DNA of 64,000 nt, taken from the NCBI RefSeq assembly GCF_020618775.1, contig NZ_JAESVB010000017.1:1-64000 (forward strand), in the 5' to 3' direction. The notes below the pieces were generated by a model that saw nothing but the letters and a program-made list of their open reading frames with translations, was not told the DNA's origin and did not search any database. Position numbers and translations under genes: made by a program. Each line of letters starts with the position of its first letter. Position 1 is the stretch's first letter. Source of the DNA: Acidisoma silvae. GTDB lineage: Bacteria; Pseudomonadota; Alphaproteobacteria; Acetobacterales; Acetobacteraceae. Of the stretch, positions 5,591 to 64,000 are shown piece after piece.

Positions 5591-6367
5591 ATGAACGTCA
5601 TTTATGATTTTACCGGTAAAACGGTGCTGATTATCGGCGGCACGACTGGCATTGGCCGCGCGACGGCTTTGGCTTTCGCGAAAGCCGGGGCCAATCTTGT
5701 GGTTGCCGGCATCGGCGCCACGCAGGGCGAGAGCTTGGTCGCGGAGGTTACCAACTCAAGCCAGGCGCAAATCGAATTTGCGGAAGTCGATGTCAGGGTT
5801 GAGGCTCAGGTCAAAGCCCTGGTCGAACGGGCGGTTGCGCGATTCGGCGGTATTGATGTCGCTTTCAATAATGCTGGCGTTCCAGGCAAGACAGCGCCCA
5901 TCCAGGATCTGGAAGAGAGTGATTTTGACTATATTCTTGATATAAATCTGAAGGGCATTTTCTTCGGGTTGAAATATCAGGTTCCGCAAATGCTGGCACA
6001 GGGCGGTGGGGTTATTGTCAACACGGCCTCCCTGTTCGGTGTCATGGGCTATGCGACGACCGCGACCTATTGCGCGTCGAAATGGGGTGTTATCGGCTTG
6101 ACCAATTCCGTCGCGCTTGAAGTGGCCAAGTCGAATATCCGCGTCAATGCCATCGCGCCAGGCTCCACCATGACACCGCTGCTAAGTGGCATGTTCGGTG
6201 GGGAGCAGACGGCACGCGACAAGGTAACGCATCTGATCCCCATGGGCCGTATCGCCGATCCCAAAGAGATTGCGCAGTTGGTTCTGTTTTTATCTTCTGA
6301 TGCGGCATCATATATCACAGGGCAGGCGGTTGTTGTCGACGGTGGTGGATTTGTGCCGGGAGGTTGA
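5591..6367 (+). CDS. SDR family oxidoreductase
   Basis: A 258-residue classical short-chain dehydrogenase: cofactor motif GGTTGIGRA near residue 17, NNAG at about 90, catalytic Ser in NTASLFG and the YCASK Tyr-Lys pair near 157-161, and the FLSSDAASYITGQ / VDGGG ending. It is of the glucose 1-dehydrogenase/FabG-like kind; the substrate is unknown. It starts 51 bases after the gabD-like gene and is probably the last gene of the first forward cluster, giving that cluster two dehydrogenases. GAGAG precedes the ATG. Confidence 0.88.
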   Translation: MNVIYDFTGKTVLIIGGTTGIGRATALAFAKAGANLVVAGIGATQGESLVAEVTNSSQAQIEFAEVDVRVEAQVKALVERAVARFGGIDVAFNNAGVPGKTAPIQDLEESDFDYILDINLKGIFFGLKYQVPQMLAQGGGVIVNTASLFGVMGYATTATYCASKWGVIGLTNSVALEVAKSNIRVNAIAPGSTMTPLLSGMFGGEQTARDKVTHLIPMGRIADPKEIAQLVLFLSSDAASYITGQAVVVDGGGFVPGG

Positions 6368-7329
6368 GGTCATATCATGGGATGGTTTAACGATAACCCG
6401 GCAGTCCTTCTGGCCATTGAGCAATAAAGGCGGAAAATTCCAAATTTATGCGAATCTGACCGGCCGATCACGGAAGCCAGCGCCTATCTTTTAGATGAGC
6501 CAACGCTGGCCTACGTTTTGGCAATGTGGCCCGCCTTTGATCACCGTCTCGAGATAGCAAGGTCAACTCGCAGCACTTCTGATGTTGGCAGCGACTGGCA
6601 GCCGCAGCGCTCAGGACCATCCGGCTTTTGGGACAGCCTGCGCTGACCAAGCGGCTGCCTTTGACCGAGTTGAGTCCGCGCGAACACCTCACAGAGCGCT
6701 GCATTATTATCACCATTTGCGTGCCAGCACGGAAGCACTCGGGGCTGCTTGTCAAGTAGCGACAGCCACTCTTCACGAAGGCCATAGTGAGACGGCTTTG
6801 ACCTTCTTGCGAGAGGGATTGCGGCAGCTGCAACTTGCGGCAGGTGCGCTGCCAGGTTTCAAGATGGTCGCCTTTGGCCAATCATTCTGCGCCACTCGCG
6901 CTTCAATCACTGGGTAAAACAAGAGAGCATCCATGGCTGACTACTCGATTTGGGTTATGGAATCGCGATGGTCAGATAGGAAAGCTTGTTGTTTGCAAAG
7001 GATGCAATGATTAATGCAGCAGGCGACGAATATCGGCGCGTGGTGCCGCCGCATGAGGAGCAAGTCGGCGCGGTGCTTCCTTCGCGTGCCACCAGGACTG
7101 GTTTGCGCATTACTGAAATTGCACTCGGACAAGGTGAGACAAGCCTCACTACATGAGCAGGATGCGTTTCGGCCGCAGGCGACCTTGGAACCAAAATCGA
7201 CGACGCCCTGCGGCTTCGGATCTCAATAGCTGTCGCCGTACCCCCCTTCGCCGCGGTGATCATCCTCACCCCCAGAACGGGCTAGGTCGCCTGATGGCAA
7301 ACCAAGGATGCACATGCCACCGATTGTCG
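6368..7329. other. relic zone without a convincing intact gene
   Basis: About 1 kb of decayed-looking sequence. Short frames are broken by stops and none starts with a good ribosome site. One forward stretch, about 7010-7144, reads EYRRVVPPHEEQ ... RITEIALGQGET and then stops; it resembles the start of a small cupin-domain protein cut off before its metal-binding histidines, but the match is too short to name. With the transposase remnant just downstream, the zone looks like a site of past insertion and gene loss. Confidence 0.4.
6582..6917 (+). CDS. doubtful hypothetical ORF, 111 residues
   Basis: An open forward frame with a helix-rich, Ala/Leu-rich second half (LTFLREGLRQLQLAAGALPG) and no recognisable motif. 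No Shine-Dalgarno lies ahead of the ATG, and a frame of similar length runs on the opposite strand, so it may be chance or a gene remnant. It is listed because no other feature explains the stretch. Confidence 0.2.
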   Translation: MLAATGSRSAQDHPAFGTACADQAAAFDRVESARTPHRALHYYHHLRASTEALGAACQVATATLHEGHSETALTFLREGLRQLQLAAGALPGFKMVAFGQSFCATRASITG

Positions 7330-7711
7330 CTTCAGCGCTTTGCATCAAACCACGCGGGTTGCGGACCAAAGCCCAAGGCGAAAAAGTGGATGACTTGAAG
7401 GAGATCTCGACTAAGCTCGCCGCAATACGGGTCCTCAGCATGCGTTTTCGTGGGCTTCTGACGCGCGGCAATATTGAATTGTTGAATACTTGGCTACAGG
7501 ACGCAGCCTGCTTCGGCATTCATGCGATGCGACAGTTTGCAGCGACGTTTCGCCGAGACATTGGTGCCGTCCGCGACGCCATCCTGGATCCTTGGAGCAA
7601 CGGTCAGACAGAGGGGCAAATCGACCGCCTAAAACCCTCAAGCGTGCATTGCATGGTCTTGCTAGCGTCAAGTTGCTCCGTGCGAGGATGCTTACCCTTT
7701 ATACAACTTAA
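7330..7711 (+). mobile_element. ISL3-family transposase remnant, 5'-truncated and frameshifted
   Basis: The frame reads GIHAMRQFAATFRRDIGAVRD then PWSNGQTEGQIDRLK, the hallmark C-terminal block of ISL3 transposases. After RLK the family continues in another frame as TLKRALHGLASVKLLRARML, so a one-base loss in the A-run near 7628-7632 has shifted it. Only the last third of a normal transposase (about 400 residues) is present, and no terminal inverted repeats were found, so the element cannot move. It separates the first forward cluster from the ABC1 operon. Confidence 0.75.
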
Positions 7712-7791
7712 CATCACATCCTTGAGCCAGACCCCCACACTATGAGGAAGACCGGCGGATCGTGTTCACGACGATATGACAATGGGCGTGT

Positions 7792-8790
7792 TCACTTGAT
7801 AATGCCAATTTTCTTGCGGTCAATCGTCACGAAAACAGCGCAGATCAAAACAGCTCCTTTGATAATGTTTTGTAGGTAGGGATCGACACCCGCCATATTC
7901 ATTCCGCTTGAAAGCAATGTGATGATCAACACGCCCAGCATGGTATTGATGATGCTCCCAAGGCCGCCTGTCAGTGGCGTTCCGCCGACGACGACGGCAG
8001 CGATGACATCCAGTTCAAGGCCTAGCCCGAGCTGCGAGGTGGCTGCCATTGTCCGAGCCCCTTGCAGCAGGCCTGCCATTCCAGCCAAGGTGCCTAGCAG
8101 GACGAACATCATTATTTTGACGCGTGTGACGGCTATACCGGTCAGGATCGAGACGCGTTCCCCGCCGCCAATGGCACGAACCTCGCGGCCAAAAACCGTG
8201 TAGTTGATGATGCACCAGGCAAGCACCGCCAAGGCGAGGCCGATCATGACGGAATGTGGGATGCCCCACGAATAGTCTGAATATGTCCAGAGAAATCCGT
8301 TATCGTCGATCGACACCGGCGCGCCGCGCGTGAAATAGAGGACAAGGCCGCGATAGACGACCATGGTGCCCATCGTCGCGATGAAGGAGGGCACTTTGCC
8401 GACGGCCAGCAGAAGCCCATTGATAAGCCCGCAGACCGCTCCGGCGGCGATGGCGGGAATGATCGCCCAGATGCCTAGTGTGTCTGCTGTCAGTGCGGCA
8501 ACTAGGGCCGAGACAGCGACGATCGCCCCGACCGAGATATCGATCGATCCGGCCATGATAATGAAAGTCATGCCGAGTGCGGCGACGAGCAGAACCATAC
8601 CTTGTTCGAGCACCGTGGAGAGATTGTCGAGAGACAGGAAGCGCGGCGACATGATCGTGAAAATAGCGATCAGGATGACCAAAAAGATGAGGGGAAAGCC
8701 ACGGCGAAGCTGATCCACCTGGATTCTGCGGTGCCACGGACTTTGGGGAACCTTGTCGCCTACGGCGGTCGTGGTGCTGACTTCATTCAT
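7792..8790 (-). CDS. sugar ABC transporter permease, RbsC-like (ABC1)
   Basis: A 332-residue membrane protein of the ribose/xylose/arabinose permease family, with the family hallmarks IMAGSIDISVGAIVA near residue 80, the cytoplasmic EAA-like loop GREVRAIGGGERVSILTGI at about 200, and VVGGTPLTGGLGS at about 265. It forms the membrane channel for the ATPase and binding protein encoded upstream. It is the last gene of the reverse run regulator-aldA-binding protein-ATPase-permease, nine bases after the ATPase stop. The substrate is not readable; the neighbouring aldA suggests a sugar yielding lactaldehyde. Confidence 0.92.
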   Translation of the reverse strand: MNEVSTTTAVGDKVPQSPWHRRIQVDQLRRGFPLIFLVILIAIFTIMSPRFLSLDNLSTVLEQGMVLLVAALGMTFIIMAGSIDISVGAIVAVSALVAALTADTLGIWAIIPAIAAGAVCGLINGLLLAVGKVPSFIATMGTMVVYRGLVLYFTRGAPVSIDDNGFLWTYSDYSWGIPHSVMIGLALAVLAWCIINYTVFGREVRAIGGGERVSILTGIAVTRVKIMMFVLLGTLAGMAGLLQGARTMAATSQLGLGLELDVIAAVVVGGTPLTGGLGSIINTMLGVLIITLLSSGMNMAGVDPYLQNIIKGAVLICAVFVTIDRKKIGIIK

Positions 8791-56824: not shown

Positions 56825-57739
56825 ATGACCATGACCATCCTGCGCCGGGCAATCTACGCCTGCGCCGCCCTGTCAGTGACGACATTGCCTGCGCTTGCGG
56901 CCGATCCCTTCGGCTCGCCCGTGCCGAAGCGCCATTCGAAGAGTACCATCATCGTGGGCTCTGCCAACTTTCCGGAAAGCCAGTTGATCGCCACGATCTA
57001 TGCCAAGGCCCTGAAGGACGCTGGTCTTTCGGTACAGACGCATATGAATATCGGCAGCCGAGAGGTTTATATCCCCGCGTTGGAGGATGGTTCCATCGAC
57101 TTGCTGCCCGAATATTCCGGCAGCATGCTGACATATCTCGATAAAAATGCGACAGCGAGCTCACCATCCGATGTCGTATCCGCGCTGAAAGCCGCGCTGC
57201 CCAAGGGTGTTTCAATGCTGACGCCATCTGCTGCCCAGGACGCCGATACGGTAACGGTGACGGCGGCGACAGCTGCGAAGTACCATCTGAAGTCGATCGC
57301 CGATTTGAATCCAGTCGCCGATGAAATGGTATCGGGCGGAGCGCCGGAATGGCAGACGCGTGAGGAGGGTGCTGTCGGTCTTACCAAAATCTACGGAGTG
57401 ACTTTTAAATCCTTCAAAGATTTGGACGAGGCGGGCCCATTGACACTTTCAGCACTGGTCAACGGCCAGATTCAAGCGGCAGACGTTTATTCGACCGATC
57501 CGTCGATGTCAGCGGATCATCTTGTCGCGCTAAGCGATCCGAAATCGCTGTTTCCGGCACAGAATGTCGTGCCGATCATCGCGGCCGCAAAGGTGAGTCT
57601 CGTCGTGACCAAGACATTGGATGCCGTCTCCGCTGCATTGACCACGGATGATCTGGTCAAGATGAATGCGGAACTTGCTAATCATGTAAGCTATGAGAAA
57701 GTTGCAAATGACTGGCTAAGGGCTCACAAAATTCAATAA
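56825..57739 (+). CDS. osmoprotectant-type substrate-binding protein (ABC7; OsmF/OpuCC-like)
   Basis: A 304-residue periplasmic protein with signal peptide ending ALAA. IIVGSANFPESQLIATIYAKAL, THMNIGSREVYIPALEDGSID, LLPEYSGSMLTYLD and ADVYSTDPSM are the type-2 betaine/choline/carnitine-binding pattern. Last gene of the operon, followed 70 bases on by a strong terminator. In OsmF-like proteins the ligand can also be an amine of low affinity, so osmoprotection is inferred. Confidence 0.89.
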   Translation: MTMTILRRAIYACAALSVTTLPALAADPFGSPVPKRHSKSTIIVGSANFPESQLIATIYAKALKDAGLSVQTHMNIGSREVYIPALEDGSIDLLPEYSGSMLTYLDKNATASSPSDVVSALKAALPKGVSMLTPSAAQDADTVTVTAATAAKYHLKSIADLNPVADEMVSGGAPEWQTREEGAVGLTKIYGVTFKSFKDLDEAGPLTLSALVNGQIQAADVYSTDPSMSADHLVALSDPKSLFPAQNVVPIIAAAKVSLVVTKTLDAVSAALTTDDLVKMNAELANHVSYEKVANDWLRAHKIQ

Positions 57740-57808
57740 CTGTGCCGAAGCATTTTTAGCGAATCTCGAGTTCAGGCCCGACTGATAGTAGCCAAAGGCC
57801 TATGTCAT

Positions 57809-57842
57809 CGGCGCCGTCATTTGAAATGGCGGCGCCGTTTTT
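57809..57842 (+). terminator. intrinsic terminator of the ABC7 operon
   Basis: CGGCGCCGTCATT (57809-57821) and AATGGCGGCGCCG (57825-57837) form a 13-pair stem with one T-G wobble and a three-base TGA loop, followed by TTTTT (57838-57842). This is the clearest rho-independent terminator in the window. Confidence 0.88.
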
Positions 57843-58393
57843 AGTTGTTGATCGCTATTGGCTCGCCCCAAAGTGTTGCCTTGCGCGGCGCCTACGAATG
57901 ATGGGGCCTGTTGTCGATATGACGCAAAAGGCGTCTCCCTCAAACTATGGGCAGATGCAGTGGTAACATGCGAACTCGCAGGAGATCTCTGTTGGCCCGC
58001 CCATACATGGAGCGCTTCACCGTCTTCAGTCAGTTGATCTGGCCTCGACTTGGATATTGCTCTATCTCTTGACAATGACGCTGCGAACTTCGGCTATGTC
58101 CATTGCGCAAAGTCAAGACGAAGCGGCGTATAGCGTAGTGGCCAAAGCTGTGCGCTTCCTTCATCCAGTCATCAGGGCGATCCATTCTATTCCCTGGCGC
58201 CGTGCATCCAGCGTCTTAAGGCCAAGATCAAGGTTCCACTCGATTTTCATGGCTTTCTCCTGGCTGCAGGCCACCATCGATATGGCTGTGCTGCAAGACC
58301 CCCCTCCGTTTTGCCCACAGATTGAGGAAAATCCCCTTAAAGGCGCTCTGTATGGTTTTCGGTGCCAGAAAAATTGATTGCGCAGTTCAGCTG
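57843..58393. other. gap, nothing recognised
   Basis: About 550 bases between the terminator and the 3' end of the reverse flavin-oxidase-like gene. Open frames on both strands lack ribosome sites and family likeness. No repeat or structured element was noticed. Confidence 0.3.
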
Positions 58394-59038
58394 CTAAATG
58401 GGATCACACTGTTTTTTCTGCTCCGCCGCAAGCGCTTCACTTAAGCGCTTCACTTCGGCTTCGAGGTCATCGACATGCTTCCGTAGCGGACTGATGGCTT
58501 CCTCAATTTCTGCTTCGGTGAAACGCGGTGTGATGTGCTGCGGGCAGTTCCAGTCGAAGGTCACCAAATGTAGGAGAATGATGTGCTCCACCTTAGCCTT
58601 ATACGCGGGGTCGAGCACTTGTGCCGCAAGCTCCGGCCTTTCTGTCAGTAAGACGCTTTCCGCATGTGCCAAGATCTTCATCCGCGACCGACTTGGATAG
58701 TTCATCAGGATCAATGCGATCCGGTTGTCGGTGCTAAGGTTGCCGAGCGATATATACTGTAAGTTCCCCCGGTAGTCGGGAAAGGCGAGCGTCTTTTCAT
58801 CTATTACCTTGAGAAAGCCAGGTTGGCCGCCCCGGTGCTGAATATAGGGCCATCCGCTTTCGCCCACAGTCGCCATGTAGAAACTGTCGCGCATGCCGAT
58901 GAAAGCCGCCTCGTCCGGGCCAAAGCGGCCGAATTCCCGATGGCCTCTAAAATCTGCCCAGACTTTGTCTGTGCCCATGGTGGTCTGCATAGCCCTTACG
59001 CCGGGCGTCACCATCTGATCCAGAAAACCGTAAGACAT
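58394..59038 (-). CDS. pyridoxamine 5'-phosphate oxidase-family flavoprotein
   Basis: A 214-residue protein with the split-barrel FMN fold: AAFIGMRDSFYMATVGESGWPYIQHRGG, then VIDEKTLAFPDYRGNLQYISLGNL and RIALILMNYPSRSRMKILAHAE. Such proteins are usually flavin reductases or oxidases of unknown substrate rather than PdxH. The C-terminus, about residues 180-210 (DDLEAEVKRLSEALAAEQ), is a predicted coiled coil, partly made by a 13-bp tandem duplication in the gene (58430-58455). It stands alone, reverse, before the sulfur operon, and may be an oxidoreductase partner of it. Confidence 0.87.
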   Translation of the reverse strand: MSYGFLDQMVTPGVRAMQTTMGTDKVWADFRGHREFGRFGPDEAAFIGMRDSFYMATVGESGWPYIQHRGGQPGFLKVIDEKTLAFPDYRGNLQYISLGNLSTDNRIALILMNYPSRSRMKILAHAESVLLTERPELAAQVLDPAYKAKVEHIILLHLVTFDWNCPQHITPRFTEAEIEEAISPLRKHVDDLEAEVKRLSEALAAEQKKQCDPI

Positions 59039-59740
59039 AGCCTTTCTCTCTCTTTAGGGCTGACATAGCACCAACCACTTTCCAGCTAAAATGGTCGTTT
59101 CATTGAGTCGGTGGCTGACCGCAGCCGCGTTTTATCGCTGCCCAATTGCCAGCGCGAAACGCTTCGCCTCGACTATTTGCGCCTCGGCGGTCATGTCCTT
59201 GTTGCTGCTAAGTGTGCGCTCCCCACCTCAACGAAGCCAAGCTATCGCATTCCGACAATCGGCAGAACTAGCGATTTTGCGCGGCTCAATTTCAGATATT
59301 GAAATAAGCGTTAAACTGACGGTGCCGGGCTCGATGTTGGCCTCTCCCCGAAAGGCCGCTCTTGCAGGCGTGACCAACGCATTTAGCTGCCGAAAGGGAA
59401 TGGCGCAGGAGTTTCCCGACCCTGCTGAAGCGGACGCCGCAAAAGGCTGATCCGGTAGGTCGCAGGCGGGTTTACCGCACTCCGGTTGGTCATGAGTTCA
59501 TCGTCCCTCGACGCAAACCGCTACGGCACCGGCTACAGCGAAGGTTTAGGCGGAACCCCTACAATAAATAACACATCAAAGCCGTGAATAATGCGGTCTG
59601 TTGCTGCATATCCAACATTTTACGGTTTTATGCTGCACTATCGCCAGAATATGGTTGAGGATGAACGTTATATGGATATAAATCTAATAAATAACGTTTT
59701 AATAAGTATTACTCTATATTTAAACTATAAAAATAGTGCA
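59039..59740. promoter_or_regulatory. upstream region of the sulfur operon with AT-rich leader
   Basis: No supported gene. The last 100 bases or so (about 59640-59740) are strongly AT-rich, in contrast to their surroundings, and directly precede the regulator start. This suggests a curved or easily melted promoter; the part further left has no recognisable element. The frame of the regulator is open through this AT-rich part back to 59591, but the text there (LINNVLISITLYLNYKNSA) looks non-coding. Confidence 0.4.
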
Positions 59741-61708
59741 ATGGAGTTGGCCATACTTTTCCGTCCCACATTGACAAAAGGCCAGGCCGCAAGCGCTAGC
59801 GCACTGTCCACTACGGGCGTGCCCATTTTCTTTGCGCCTTCCGCTGCGAAAGGTTTGGACGCTTCGCTGCGGCGCCTAGCGGCAGCAGACGCACCAATTC
59901 TTGTCATTGGCGAGATTGGCACAGGAAAAGAGACGGCGGCACGTCATGTCCATGCGTCAGGTAGCCGCTGCCATGGTCCTTTTATCGCCGTAAACTGCCG
60001 GGCATTGTCCGATATGTCAGCAGATGCGGACCTTCTGGGCTATGAGAAAGACGCTTTTCCGGGCGCGTTTACCGGTCAGCGTGGGTGGTTTGAAGCAGCA
60101 AATGGCGGAACACTGTTTCTCGATGAGGTGGGAACCCTCCCTTATTCATCACAGCTGAAACTGCTGCGATCTCTTCAACAACGCGAAGTCATAAGACTGG
60201 GATCAATTACCCCTATTCCTGTGGATGTTCGCGTTATCGCATCGTCAACTCCCGGCTTGCGCAAAGCGATTGACGAGAACCTCTTCAACGAAGAGCTGTA
60301 TTTTGAGCTGAATGTCTTCAACCTGACGATTCCGCCCTTGCGGAGTCGCGTGGAAGAAATTCCCTCTCTGGCCTTCCATTTCTTGAGACTGCATGGCGAC
60401 CTGCTAGCAAAGCCAGTATCAGAAATCAGCGCTTCTGCAATCGATGTTCTCCGTCGCCACTCCTGGCCGGGAAACATGAAAGAGTTCCAGAATACAATTC
60501 AAAATGCGGTCTTCCTTGCAGCGGGTGACATTATCGGCCCGGAAGATCTGCGAATTGTGGAGCAATCCCACTCATCCGGCGATAAGACGTTCGAGGATTC
60601 TCTGCTGATCTTGCTGAGGGAAGCGTATTCCAGGGCAGAACCAGATGTCTTCAATCGCGCCACGAAAAGCATCGTCACGTCGGCCTTCGCCTTTGCAGGC
60701 CAAAATCAGGTGCGAACCGCGGATATTCTGGGTGTTAGCCGAAACACGCTTCGGACTCAGTTGGCCAACTTTGGTTCAATCACACGGCGGCGCAAAGACA
60801 GTATCCCATCCACAAAGCGAGAGTTGAGAATAGGCTATCAACGCTTTGGCACCTTGAGTGTTTTGAAGGCGCTTGGCAGTCTGGATGAGACCCTAGCGGA
60901 AAAGGGCTACAGCATCCGATGGACAAGCTATGCAGCCGGTCCATCACTGCTTGCCGCGCTCCATGCTGGCGAGATCGATTTCGGCGCGACAGGCGACGTA
61001 CCGCCGATCTTTGCTCAAGCGGTTGGCGCGCCGTTGGTTTACGTTGCACATGAACCAGCGGCTCCCGAGAGCGTCGCCCTCGTCGTTCCACACGACAGCA
61101 CAATCCGGTCACTTGGCGACCTTCGCGGCAAACGCATTAAATTCAGTCGTGGCTCGAATGTTCACTACCTGGTCGTGAAAGCCCTGGAGGCTTCCGGTCT
61201 GTCGTTTGACGACATCGAATGTGTTTATGCCGAGCCGTCAGACGCTGCTGGCTATGTCGACGGAGGAGGCGCGGACGTATGGGCTCTCTGGGATCCTCTG
61301 CTGCAAATGGCCCAGCAGGCACGCAAACTCCGCGTCCTCACTGATGGCTCGGGCCTTGTTCAAAATCATCAATTCTACCTCGCGAGCAAGCGCTTCATAG
61401 CCAATATGGAAGAGCTGCTTTCTGTGCTGCTCCAGGAACTGCAAGCGGCCGGGCTTTTTGTGGCAAATCAACCGGTCGAAGCTGCCTACCTTCTTTCAGA
61501 GAAGATCGGCACGGACGCATCAGCCCTGAAGGTGGCGTTCCATAGGCTGACCCACGGGGCGCGCCTTTTATCTCGGCAGGTGATTGAGGAACAGCAAAAG
61601 ATCGCTGACCATTTCTATTCTCTAGGACTCTTGCCGAAATCCATATCTGTTCATGACGCGGTTTTCGGCGCAGGCGCTCAAGGTCGTCGCGCGACGTTGT
61701 CACTATGA
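59741..61708 (+). CDS. AAA+ (sigma-54 activator-like)-HTH-SsuA-like fusion regulator
   Basis: A 655-residue protein. Residues 30-270 are an enhancer-binding-protein AAA+ module: Walker A GEIGTGKE (57-64), Walker B TLFLDEV (124-130), WPGN at 242-245. A Fis-type HTH follows at about 320-345, and 361-640 is an aliphatic-sulfonate-binding (SsuA) domain: LRIGYQRFGTL, GEIDFGATGDVPPIFAQA, GSNVHYLVVKALEASGL, NHQFYLASKRF. The sigma-54 contact loop GAFTGA reads DAFPGA (104-109), and the two arginine-finger positions are Asn183 and Glu189. No N-terminal sensor is present. Start 59741 is preferred over 59591. It probably senses a sulfonate/sulfone signal inside the cell and controls the msuE-sfnG genes downstream; by what mechanism is open. 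Confidence 0.85.
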   Translation: MELAILFRPTLTKGQAASASALSTTGVPIFFAPSAAKGLDASLRRLAAADAPILVIGEIGTGKETAARHVHASGSRCHGPFIAVNCRALSDMSADADLLGYEKDAFPGAFTGQRGWFEAANGGTLFLDEVGTLPYSSQLKLLRSLQQREVIRLGSITPIPVDVRVIASSTPGLRKAIDENLFNEELYFELNVFNLTIPPLRSRVEEIPSLAFHFLRLHGDLLAKPVSEISASAIDVLRRHSWPGNMKEFQNTIQNAVFLAAGDIIGPEDLRIVEQSHSSGDKTFEDSLLILLREAYSRAEPDVFNRATKSIVTSAFAFAGQNQVRTADILGVSRNTLRTQLANFGSITRRRKDSIPSTKRELRIGYQRFGTLSVLKALGSLDETLAEKGYSIRWTSYAAGPSLLAALHAGEIDFGATGDVPPIFAQAVGAPLVYVAHEPAAPESVALVVPHDSTIRSLGDLRGKRIKFSRGSNVHYLVVKALEASGLSFDDIECVYAEPSDAAGYVDGGGADVWALWDPLLQMAQQARKLRVLTDGSGLVQNHQFYLASKRFIANMEELLSVLLQELQAAGLFVANQPVEAAYLLSEKIGTDASALKVAFHRLTHGARLLSRQVIEEQQKIADHFYSLGLLPKSISVHDAVFGAGAQGRRATLSL

Positions 61709-61792
61709 TGACAAGCTCAACACATTTTTGGACATCAGGCCCCCACGCAAGCGTTTGGCGGTTCGGAGTGTTCTCTCGATAGAGGACGGAAA

Positions 61793-62365
61793 ATGGTAAA
61801 AATTATTGGAATATCGGGGAGTGTCAATCACCCTTCCCGAACCGCATCACTGGTGGGAGAAATCCTGGATCAGCTGGGGCAGGATCCGGCTTTCGAAACT
61901 CGGCTGATCGAGTTGTCCGAAGAAGCGCCGGTTCTATTCTCCGCTCTTCGGCGTGAAGATCTGCATGGACGAAGCGCGCAGATTGTTGAAAGTGTCGAAC
62001 AGGCGGACTTGCTCGTGGTCGGCACGCCGGTCTATCGCGCCTCCTACACAGGGGCTCTCAAGCATCTGTTCGATCTGGTGCATCACCGCTATTTCATTGG
62101 TAAGCCTGTCATCCTGGCGGCGACTGGCGGCACGCCACTCCATGGGCTTGTGACTGAACATCAGTTGCGTCCGCTTTTTGGCTTTCTCAACGCGCTATCG
62201 TTGCCGACGGCAATTTACGCAGTTGAGCAAGATTTTTCTGAATATAGACTTAACAACACCGTCGTAAGCCAACGCATTGAAAGAGTGGTAGCAGAAGCGA
62301 GAACACAAATAGCGCTACTTCTCGAATTGCACGGGCATGTGCGTCCGCTCGTCTCTGCCGTTTGA
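61793..62365 (+). CDS. msuE: NADPH-dependent FMN reductase (MsuE/SsuE-like)
   Basis: A 190-residue flavodoxin-like reductase: IIGISGSVNHPSRTASL at the N-terminus, VVGTPVYRASYTGALKHLFDLV near residue 77 and ILAATGGTPLHGLVTEHQLRPLFGF. It supplies reduced FMN to the two-component monooxygenase encoded next (SfnG). In Pseudomonas the equivalents are MsuE and SfnE. It lies 84 bases after the fusion regulator and 26 before sfnG. Confidence 0.9.
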   Translation: MVKIIGISGSVNHPSRTASLVGEILDQLGQDPAFETRLIELSEEAPVLFSALRREDLHGRSAQIVESVEQADLLVVGTPVYRASYTGALKHLFDLVHHRYFIGKPVILAATGGTPLHGLVTEHQLRPLFGFLNALSLPTAIYAVEQDFSEYRLNNTVVSQRIERVVAEARTQIALLLELHGHVRPLVSAV

Positions 62366-62391
62366 ACTAATCTCTCTAAGGAGAAAGCACA

Positions 62392-63513
62392 ATGAGCCAC
62401 AGCACAAACAACAGTCACTCGATCGTTCGTGATCCACTCAAATTTGCGTATTGGGTCCCGAATGTCTCCGGCGGTTTAGTGATCAGTGACATCGAGCAGC
62501 GCACCAGTTGGGACATTGACTATAATCGAAAGCTTGCTCAGATCGCGGAACAAAATGGATTTGAATATGCTCTCAGCCAGATCCGCTTTACCGCTGGATA
62601 TGGTGCAGAATTCCAGCATGAACCGGTGTCCTTTAGCCAAGCGCTTCTTGCAGCCACCGAGAAGCTAAAGGTCATTGCGGCTTTGCTGCCCGGTCCTTGG
62701 AATCCGGCCGTCGCCGCAAAGCAGATCGCCACGATCAACCATCTCAGTCATGGTCGCATCGCTGTGAATGTCGTTAGCGGTTGGTTCAGAGGCGAGTTTA
62801 CGGCGATTGGTGAACATTGGCTCGACCATGACGAACGTTATCGCCGCAGCGAGGAATTCATCCGAGCTCTTCGCGGGATTTGGACTGAAGATAACTTTAC
62901 GTTTCGTGGGGATTTTTATCGGTTCAGTGACTACTCATTGAAGCCCAAGCCGCTTGATCCCCAACCGGAAATCTTCCAGGGCGGGTCGTCGCGCGCGGCA
63001 CGGGATATGGCTGCCCGTGTCTCTGATTGGTATTTCACCAATGGCAATACACCGGAAGAGATCAAAAAGCAGGTTGACGACATTCAGGGTAAAGCTGCCG
63101 AGAATGGGCACAAGGTGCAGGTCGGCGTGAATGCCTTCGCCATCGTTCGCGCGAGCGAAAGCGAGGCGAGAGAGGTTCTCAACGAGATCATCGCAAAAGC
63201 GAATCCGGAGGCCGTCAATGCGTTCGGTCATGAAGTCAAGAATGCAGGCAAAGCTTCTCCGGAAGGCCAAGGAAACTGGGCCAAATCCAGCTTCGAAGAT
63301 CTCGTGCAATACAATGACGGATTCCGTTCGAATCTGATTGGAACACCCCATCAAGTCGCTGAGCGCGTGCTTGCCCTTAAGGACGCAGGAGCAGATCTCA
63401 TTCTGCTGGGTTTTCTACATTTTCAGGAAGAGGTCGAATTTTTCGGCAAGGAAGTCATTCCCTTGGTGCGCGAGTTGGAAGCGGCGCGGCAGCTTTCAAC
63501 GGCAGCAGAATAA
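62392..63513 (+). CDS. sfnG: dimethylsulfone monooxygenase
   Basis: A 373-residue luciferase-fold FMNH2-dependent oxygenase. PLKFAYWVPNVSGGLVISDI, IDYNRKLAQIAEQNGFEYAL, RFTAGYGAEFQHE, NVVSGWFRGEFTAIGEHWL and IFQGGSSRAARDMAARVSDW agree with SfnG of Pseudomonas, which turns dimethylsulfone into methanesulfinate and formaldehyde during sulfur starvation. AAGGAGAAAG just before the ATG is a strong ribosome site. The later steps (MsuD/MsuC-like enzymes) may lie beyond the right edge. Confidence 0.92.
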   Translation: MSHSTNNSHSIVRDPLKFAYWVPNVSGGLVISDIEQRTSWDIDYNRKLAQIAEQNGFEYALSQIRFTAGYGAEFQHEPVSFSQALLAATEKLKVIAALLPGPWNPAVAAKQIATINHLSHGRIAVNVVSGWFRGEFTAIGEHWLDHDERYRRSEEFIRALRGIWTEDNFTFRGDFYRFSDYSLKPKPLDPQPEIFQGGSSRAARDMAARVSDWYFTNGNTPEEIKKQVDDIQGKAAENGHKVQVGVNAFAIVRASESEAREVLNEIIAKANPEAVNAFGHEVKNAGKASPEGQGNWAKSSFEDLVQYNDGFRSNLIGTPHQVAERVLALKDAGADLILLGFLHFQEEVEFFGKEVIPLVRELEAARQLSTAAE

Positions 63514-63522
63514 GCGAGTTCG

Positions 63523-64000
63523 ATGGGACCTGTTCTTCAACTGAGTGATGTGAGCCTGTCGTTCGGTGGCGTTGCGGCGCTGCGCGACGTCAGTATCACT
63601 GTGCGAAAGGAAAATATTCACGCCATCATCGGACCCAATGGCGCCGGCAAAAGCTCTCTTTTGAATGTCATGACTGGAGTTTACATCCCCAGCTCTGGGG
63701 CGATCTTTCTGGCAGGGCAGTCCTTCAAAACCCTGCCGACCGAGCGCCTTGCCCGGCTTGGCGTAGCCCGGACATTTCAGAATATCGCTTTATTCAAAGG
63801 ATTGTCAGTCCTTCAGAATATTGAGATGGGCCAAAGCCATCAAAAACGAGCGAGCACTCTGGAGCAGGTGTTTCACTTGCCACGTGCCCGGAGGGAAGCA
63901 AAGCGATCGCATGAAATCGCTCGAGCGCTGGCGGAGCAGCTGCATTTGACACCTTTCTTAGACAGAACAATTGCCTCTCTACCCTACGGTGTTCAAAAGC
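63523..64000 (+). CDS. ABC transporter ATP-binding protein, LivG-like (ABC8, cut by window end)
   Basis: The reading frame from ATG 63523 runs off the right edge with no stop. It reads VLQLSDVSLSFGGVAALRDV, Walker A GPNGAGKSS (residues 37-45), GVARTFQNIALFKGLSVLQN and then a long insert typical of LivG. It begins nine bases after the sfnG stop, so it belongs to the sulfur operon. SfnG operons with SsuB-type ATPases are usual; a branched-chain-type ATPase is not, suggesting a Liv-type sulfone or sulfonate importer whose remaining genes follow outside. Confidence 0.88.
   Translation, partial: MGPVLQLSDVSLSFGGVAALRDVSITVRKENIHAIIGPNGAGKSSLLNVMTGVYIPSSGAIFLAGQSFKTLPTERLARLGVARTFQNIALFKGLSVLQNIEMGQSHQKRASTLEQVFHLPRARREAKRSHEIARALAEQLHLTPFLDRTIASLPYGVQK

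Follow-up and report, generated by a model that had tools for sequence, protein, structure and literature searches.

A degenerate AAA+ module and a missing -24/-12 promoter suggest that an SfnR-SsuA fusion regulator of Acidisoma silvae has left sigma-54

Here, we describe a regulator encoded at 59741-61708 (+) in a 64,000-nucleotide stretch of the Acidisoma silvae genome (contig NZ_JAESVB010000017.1, positions 1 to 64,000; the window), which joins a AAA+ domain and a Fis-type helix-turn-helix (HTH) to an SsuA-type domain and precedes msuE and sfnG. Judged from the sequence, the protein is without the standard motifs of a sigma-54 activator and its operon is without the matching promoter, and the HTH, the SsuA-type domain and one predicted binding site of the family are kept. 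Since the working parts of the AAA+ domain and the promoter are lost and the sensor, the HTH and the site remain, control of the sulfur-scavenging genes is probably different here. We consider it reasonably likely that the regulator is a former sigma-54 activator which now works without sigma-54, as a cytoplasmic one-component regulator of organosulfur scavenging. An earlier note on this DNA had proposed that sigma-54 remodelling was given up, and the comparisons below lend support to this proposal, as the degeneracy appears confined to the AAA+ domain and the -24/-12 promoter of the relatives is missing.

The reading frame is uninterrupted, with no stop or frameshift across its 655 codons, and holds the AAA+ domain, the Fis-type HTH and the SsuA-type domain in this order. 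Pfam matches were found for Sigma54_activat (residues 40-195), AAA_lid_14 (201-272) and NMT1/SBP (402-581), the HTH was placed by alignment, and the NCBIfam model SsuA_fam (TIGR01728) matched residues 362-641 with 168.7 bits against a cut-off of 163.5. Residues 360-642 resemble the periplasmic sulfonate-binding SsuA proteins (structures 2x26, 3ksj and 3ksx) in sequence and fold: the sequence match to 2x26 reaches an E-value of 9e-53, and the predicted model matches the fold of 3ksj (TM-score 0.91 on the target, 35% identity) and also that of 3ksx. Because a DNA-binding protein carries this domain at its C-terminal end, no signal peptide stands ahead of it. The best Protein Data Bank matches of the C-terminal part of the model are SsuA bound to MES or MOPS, and those of the AAA+ part are the enhancer-binding-type proteins NtrX, ZraR, NtrC1, FlrC and FleQ. 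The mean predicted local distance difference test score (pLDDT) of the model is 78.9, with the L1 loop mostly below 50 (residues 101-105 and 107-109). The features of the regulator, with their basis, are as follows.

59741-61708 (+): regulator, AAA+/HTH/SsuA-type fusion of 655 residues with degenerate AAA+ domain (open reading frame, Pfam/NCBIfam, alignment)
59858-60556 (+): AAA+ domain with lid, residues 40-272, 21 of 85 family invariants changed (Pfam, invariant comparison)
59909-59932 (+): Walker A GEIGTGKE, residues 57-64, kept (translation, alignment)
60050-60067 (+): L1 loop, DAFPGA for GAFTGA, residues 104-109 (alignments)
60110-60130 (+): Walker B TLFLDEV, residues 124-130, kept (translation, alignment)
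60287-60307 (+): arginine-finger segment, N183 and E189 replacing both Arg of FRxDLxxR (alignment, invariants)
60479-60481 (+): sensor II position, Lys247 replacing Arg (alignment, invariants)
60701-60775 (+): Fis-type HTH, about residues 321-345; no family invariant lost in 273-352 (alignment, invariants)
60818-61666 (+): SsuA-type domain, residues 360-642, none of 26 invariants lost (TIGR01728, model, invariants)

The motifs were placed in a reference alignment with PspF and NtrC of E. coli, two Burkholderia SfnR-like proteins and seven fused relatives. DAFPGA aligns on GAFTGA without gaps in all of these groups, N183 and E189 occupy both Arg positions of FRxDLxxR, likewise ungapped, and HMMER alignments to ZraR and FlrC give the same register for loop and fingers. 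Walker A (G57-E64) and Walker B (D128/E129) are intact, as is the switch Asn (N85); Lys247 takes the place of the sensor II Arg, and sensor I is altered (A168S and T169S). An exact GAFTG string lies at residues 108-112 (60062-60076), four residues out of register from the degenerate loop. Thus, the loop, the fingers, both Walker motifs, the stray GAFTG and the SsuA-type domain after the HTH are all as the earlier note had read them. The stray string consists of the loop's normal Gly-Ala, followed by Phe-Thr-Gly where the closest relative has Ile-Arg-Ser; it could derive from a short duplication with a compensating loss, or from chance. A misplaced loop alignment was rejected, as PspF, NtrC and the relatives run ungapped through the loop and the DNA of the window and of loci L145 and L053 can be aligned codon for codon.

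Is this degeneracy a common trait of such fusions? When named bacterial genomes were scanned with the HTH-to-SsuA junction, 108 stretches were confirmed, of which the best 80 were retained; they come mainly from Enterobacterales, with some from Azospirillum, Methylocystaceae and Acetobacteraceae. In all 79 assessable relatives (L075, with an interrupted frame, was excluded) the L1 loop is of the GAFTGA type, namely GAFTGA in 71, GAFSGA in seven and GSFTGA in one, and the FRxDLxxR fingers are kept throughout; the sensor II Arg is likewise kept in 79 of 79 relatives. The GAFSGA carriers are the Kluyvera loci L083, L087, L089, L097, L101, L104 and L122, and a passage of PMC4641369 lists this variant as activation-compatible. 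As a control, 23 of 24 other enhancer-binding proteins from the fetched loci (27 loci, three of which gave no frame) match loop and finger motifs, the exception being a 400-residue frame in which the finger match alone is missing. Further genome samples comprised 60 mixed relatives and 397, 395, 385 and 376 genomes (family, order, class and family again), partly overlapping and drawn from larger groups. Among the matches listed, fusions occur there only in the window genome and in genomes G276, G171, G489 and G529, and the latter four are all canonical in their motifs. G276 belongs to the same family (f1) as the window genome, and its locus L051 is identical in sequence to the Acetobacteraceae locus L053; L052 and L111 form another such pair, as do L146 (from G529) and L127, which are separated by zero branch length. 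The degenerate form is thus confined to the window copy among the fusion copies read.

The fusion itself is widespread. In a tblastn search of plasmids 233 records matched; in 73 of these a single place spans at least 80% of the regulator, and the full-length matches listed are about 42-47% identical to it. The novelty that the earlier note had implied for the fusion was therefore rejected, given these 73 records and the best 80 of 108 scan loci, and the degeneracy alone is unusual. The same domain order near sfnG or ssu genes, which the note had suggested looking for, is indeed found elsewhere, for example in five of six plasmid fusion loci examined, which have annotated ssuD, sfnG or msuE nearby. 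The sixth, L042 (CP093281.1, Pseudomonas silvicola plasmid p1, about 6001-7805), is sparsely annotated and apparently broken, with four match pieces and separate short genes.

We found the changes to be limited to one domain. Compared with the residues invariant in 79 relatives (77 of the 80 scan loci, without L075, L089 and L122, plus L044 and L045), the window protein departs at 21 of 85 positions in the AAA+ domain, at 0 of 10 in the linker and HTH and at 0 of 26 in the SsuA domain (21/85 versus 0/36, Fisher's exact test, p = 3.8e-4); these counts lean on related sequences, as many of the 79 are close Enterobacterales neighbours. Nine relatives under the same test show at most two departures in the AAA+ domain and some up to seven in the SsuA domain. 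Branch lengths were estimated on a fixed topology (LG+G4, 20 rows, two rows being one sequence). The AAA+ terminal branch of the window copy is 1.335, against 0.174 for L145, 0.196 for L053 and 0.125 for L054, and its SsuA-domain branch is 0.466, against 0.203, 0.262 and 0.691, respectively. The resulting AAA+/SsuA ratio of 2.87 is the highest of the 20 rows, the next being 1.68. The 21 AAA+ changes have a mean BLOSUM62 score of 0.14, against -0.87 for random codon changes, and only 4 of 5000 simulations were as mild. Based on these milder substitutions, the AAA+ fold still seems to be constrained.

The loss in the protein is mirrored at the DNA. We scored -24/-12 elements with weights taken from the consensus (maximum 17.9) and took a score of at least 15 as a comparable site. 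At 75 of the 80 loci, the scan took in the 700 bp preceding and the 400 bp following each relative's gene and considered two orientations; L075, L076, L089, L129 and L131 were left out as the Walker A pattern was not matched. A -24/-12 element scoring at least 15 was found in 74 of 75 relatives, lying upstream of the regulator when divergent and downstream of it when co-directional. By motifs and promoters, the relatives' family thus appears to consist of sigma-54 activators. The window operon has no comparable element, the best scores being 11.3 at 59039-59760 and 9.9 at 61600-61800, and no GG-N10-GC element scoring at least 3 occurs at 61700-61800. Scores of 12.6 and 11.9 are reached at 61500-61600, inside the 3' end of the regulator frame, and seven sites scoring at least 15 occur in the whole window on both strands. 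A sequence search for the -24/-12 promoter ahead of msuE-sfnG, which the earlier note had named as evidence that would speak against its proposal, thus gave no such element. The genome carries one rpoN, so that loss of this gene was rejected as an explanation.

The predicted binding site is what remains. Upstream of the relatives' promoters we found palindromes near CTGTTGCA-NN-TGCAACAG, the predicted upstream activating sequence (UAS). All 74 regions hold at least one and 73 hold at least two; 65 regions have exactly two, and in 64 of these the pair is spaced by 31 or 32 bp. The matrix was built from relatives only, and the consensus was read by eye from the relatives before the window was scanned. 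The best match in the 64-kb window lies just upstream of the regulator, scoring 19.6 bits against 12.9 for the next, with one core mismatch to the consensus; this score was reached only once in 2000 Markov resamplings of the region. Three matches of at least 19 bits were read as one site, as they come from the window and the overlapping loci L005 and L010.

59601-59618 (+): predicted binding site (UAS), 19.6 of 28.9 bits (matrix from relatives)
59630-59647 (+): possible degraded second UAS, 29 bp on, which may be chance (1.5 bits)

The closest relative found, L145/L147, is 53% identical, belongs to the same taxonomic family and has regulator, msuE, sfnG and ABC (ATP-binding cassette) transporter genes in synteny. 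In its regulator-msuE interval lie a UAS (22.2 bits) and a -24/-12 element (score 16.0); upstream of the regulator, another UAS is accompanied by a divergent -24/-12 element, before a gene resembling luciferase-like monooxygenases (LLM). In L053 the regulator-msuE interval holds two UAS and one -24/-12 element. In the window, regulator, msuE and sfnG are co-directional, and the identities of msuE (TIGR03566, 219.9 against a cut-off of 212.5) and sfnG (TIGR04021, 614.3 against 382.95) are clear of the NCBIfam thresholds.

59648-59740 (+): AT-rich leader, 21.5% GC, with a loose sigma-70-like TTGAGG (59655)-16-TATAAA (59677) at chance level (composition, resampling)
61709-61792 (+): 84-bp gap to msuE, without the UAS and -24/-12 element that L145 and L053 carry there (matrix and promoter scans)
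61793-62365 (+): msuE, FMN (flavin mononucleotide) reductase (NCBIfam)
62392-63513 (+): sfnG, dimethylsulfone monooxygenase (NCBIfam)
63523-64000 (+): start of an ABC transporter ATP-binding gene; co-directional genes run past the window (Pfam, locus comparison)

How could such a regulator work? SfnR of Pseudomonas putida and P. aeruginosa is a sigma-54 activator of sfnFG, with a AAA+ domain and HTH and no N-terminal sensor. The two Burkholderia SfnR-like proteins, one of which (L047) adjoins msuE and sfnG, align to residues 40-352 of the window protein and have canonical AAA+ motifs and no SsuA domain. The SfnR-SsuA fusions of Pantoea, Erwinia, Serratia, Klebsiella, Kluyvera, Azospirillum and Methylocystis resemble the window copy in several respects: the order of domains is the same, sequence identity is about 42-53% along most of the protein, genes such as ssuD, sfnG and msuE lie nearby, and the binding site is of the same type. 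However, those read have a GAFTGA-type loop, both fingers, the sensor II Arg and, nearly all, a -24/-12 promoter, and the window copy has none of these. We propose that its ancestor was an SfnR-like AAA+/HTH protein with a C-terminal SsuA-type domain, from this widespread family, and that the sigma-54 partnership was dropped at both ends, by loss of loop, fingers and sensor II Arg in the protein and of the -24/-12 element at the operon. The regulator would still bind 59601-59618, its assembly would depend on a ligand and possibly on ATP binding, without hydrolysis, and it may control, by activation or repression, a non-sigma-54 promoter upstream of its own gene, with read-through into msuE, sfnG and the ABC transporter. 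That sfnG is controlled by another route, as the earlier note held, is plausible in view of the predicted UAS upstream of the regulator, the co-directional regulator, msuE and sfnG, the 84-bp gap and the lack of a sigma-70-like promoter at 61650-62400. More tentatively, we propose a ligand-gated, hydrolysis-dead AAA+ regulator, in which the cytoplasmic SsuA-type domain would switch a catalytically silent ring, assembled by ATP binding, at a non-sigma-54 promoter.

Precedents for several of these steps exist. Action at sigma-70 promoters is reported or proposed for several AAA+ regulators with a disabled GAFTGA loop, including R. capsulatus NtrC, HupR, E. coli TyrR and DhaR, V. cholerae VpsR and Caulobacter NtrC, according to passages of PMC3162934, in which TyrR, DhaR and HupR are named sigma-70-dependent, and of PMC10274813. 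The window copy shares with them the disabled loop and the kept DNA-binding part. Unlike in these proteins, its sensor is a C-terminal SsuA-type domain, and where the sigma-54-independent relatives described in these passages mostly lost the loop by deletion, the window loop is substituted, with fingers and sensor II Arg gone as well; TyrR, for comparison, keeps its fingers (FREDLYYRL), whereas the window copy does not. A Thr-to-Pro exchange at the same loop position made NifA of B. japonicum inactive, as a section of PMC4641369 states, and part of the survey in PMC3162934 describes about 110 homologues with minor loop deviations, with Pro preferred at the loop Thr position. R. capsulatus NtrC is reported, in PMC10274813, to act via sigma-70 with ATP binding rather than hydrolysis being essential. 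ATP-gated oligomerisation would fit the Walker motifs kept in the window copy, since kept Walker motifs with lost fingers match this mode by analogy.

The strongest and main rival is that the regulator is a non-functional relic: msuE-sfnG would be constitutive or answer to a different regulator, and too little time would have passed for the frame to break. We hold this to be unlikely, though it deserves serious weight. A relic would account for why the AAA+ domain has lost its catalytic residues and the operon its -24/-12 promoter, and the family has an apparently broken copy elsewhere in L042. Several results weigh against a working regulator or against parts of its proposed mode. No sigma-70-like promoter above chance was found in the regulator upstream region or at 61650-62400: ahead of the regulator one pair was seen, on the other strand, against 0.9 expected, and was rejected, and the looser scan, with sigma-70 hexamers, is also at chance level, with the one TTGAGG-16-TATAAA pair after the UAS facing a mean of 1.2 and with at least one pair of this kind turning up in 662 of 1000 resamplings. 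The UAS might derive from a divergent promoter since lost, of the kind found upstream at L145. No second copy with a degenerate AAA+ domain was found among the genome samples searched or the matches listed, so that conservation of the degenerate form cannot be demonstrated. The HTH terminal branch is raised too (0.769, against 0.346 for L145, 0.427 for L053 and 0.257 for L054), and in a neutral simulation 12 to 26% of runs were also stop-free, which makes the intact frame only modest evidence for function. L058, from a Methylocystaceae metagenome-assembled genome, has a canonical AAA+ domain, yet no -24/-12 element of at least 15 in its locus; a strong UAS of 23.7 bits lies there at 2294, about 2.7 kb upstream of the regulator frame. 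We infer the sulfonate or sulfone ligand from the SsuA family only, and ATP binding is likewise a presumption. The precedents vary as well: PMC10274813 describes VpsR (spelt VspR there) as independent of ATP, whereas Caulobacter NtrC is described as requiring its Walker motifs. Against a relic, the losses fall in one domain only, with none of 36 invariants lost in the HTH and SsuA parts, the AAA+ substitutions are more conservative than random codon change, a strong UAS is kept with the -24/-12 element gone, and 655 codons run without stop or frameshift.

There are two further explanations. In one, the protein is still an activator, with GAFTG at 108-112 serving as a re-registered L1 loop and a divergent -24/-12 element missed by the scan. 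The exact string four residues downstream in the same flexible, low-pLDDT loop and the rpoN in the genome speak for it, but the ungapped alignment needs no shift, a shift does not repair the lost fingers and sensor II Arg, and no GG-N10-GC element turned up in the gap to msuE; we regard it as very improbable. Less probable still is a mixed ring, in which the protein forms oligomers with another enhancer-binding protein (EBP) and modulates its activity, either positively or by inhibition. HrpR/HrpS sets a precedent for such rings, as noted in a passage of PMC7057263, and four other strong EBP-type genes (L001-L004) exist in the genome. However, L002 and L003 look AcoR-like by eye, L001 and L004 were provisionally assigned, by their position and size only, to the NtrC/NtrX types, an SfnR-like partner was not seen, and the operon has no -24/-12 element. 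The additional loss of fingers, sensor II and promoter makes both the shifted loop and the mixed ring unlikely.

To our knowledge, the route from a sigma-54 regulator to independence is known mainly from end states (TyrR, HupR, R. capsulatus NtrC). Sigma-54-independent enhancer-binding relatives are thus already known, and what the window case adds is the SsuA-type sensor and the syntenic sigma-54-type relative. Since L145/L147, sigma-54-type in its motifs and promoters, stands beside the converted window copy, the change can be dissected by domain and by promoter. If the departure from sigma-54 is true, the locus would document in nature how an operon gives up sigma-54: protein and promoter jointly lose matching parts, and sensor, HTH and site stay. 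The wider family, with many members in Enterobacterales, offers a predicted one-component sulfonate sensor together with a predicted layout of site and promoter.

Some minor observations concern the surroundings. Divergent from the regulator, at 58394-59038 (-), lies a gene for a PPOX-type FMN-binding protein (Pfam PNPOx_N), at whose place L147 has, by eye, LLM monooxygenase-like and FAD (flavin adenine dinucleotide)-binding-protein-like genes. A remnant of the LLM gene upstream of the regulator was rejected, as only weak, chance-level tblastn matches (E at least 0.05) occur at 57700-59760. A palindrome TTGTCA-N6-TGACAA at 61697-61714 overlaps the regulator stop codon, about 80 bp before msuE. 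It was rejected as a family operator, with no exact copy in 74 relatives' promoter regions and two regions at two mismatches, and a perfect six-base repeat of this kind arises in 235 of 1000 resamplings.

Genome-wide, 10 UAS-like places with at most one mismatch were counted, against 1 in the reversed control. Several of them lie, by eye, inside apparent reading frames; this set was therefore not used as evidence and was set aside as a regulon. One UAS-like palindrome in the same genome (L141, near 93773 of C14), with one core mismatch and 15.4 bits, lies upstream of what by eye is a RutA-type luciferase-like monooxygenase gene. L033, considered as a fusion reaching its SsuA part through a stop, was rejected, its frame being an ordinary enhancer-binding protein of 459 codons. 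In open-licence literature, no paper naming such a fusion was found in titles and abstract openings. Fused regulators are also annotated as 'sigma-54-dependent Fis family transcriptional regulator', and some, for example in Chimaeribacter and Azospirillum, as 'aliphatic sulfonate ABC transporter substrate-binding protein' despite their DNA-binding regulator domains.

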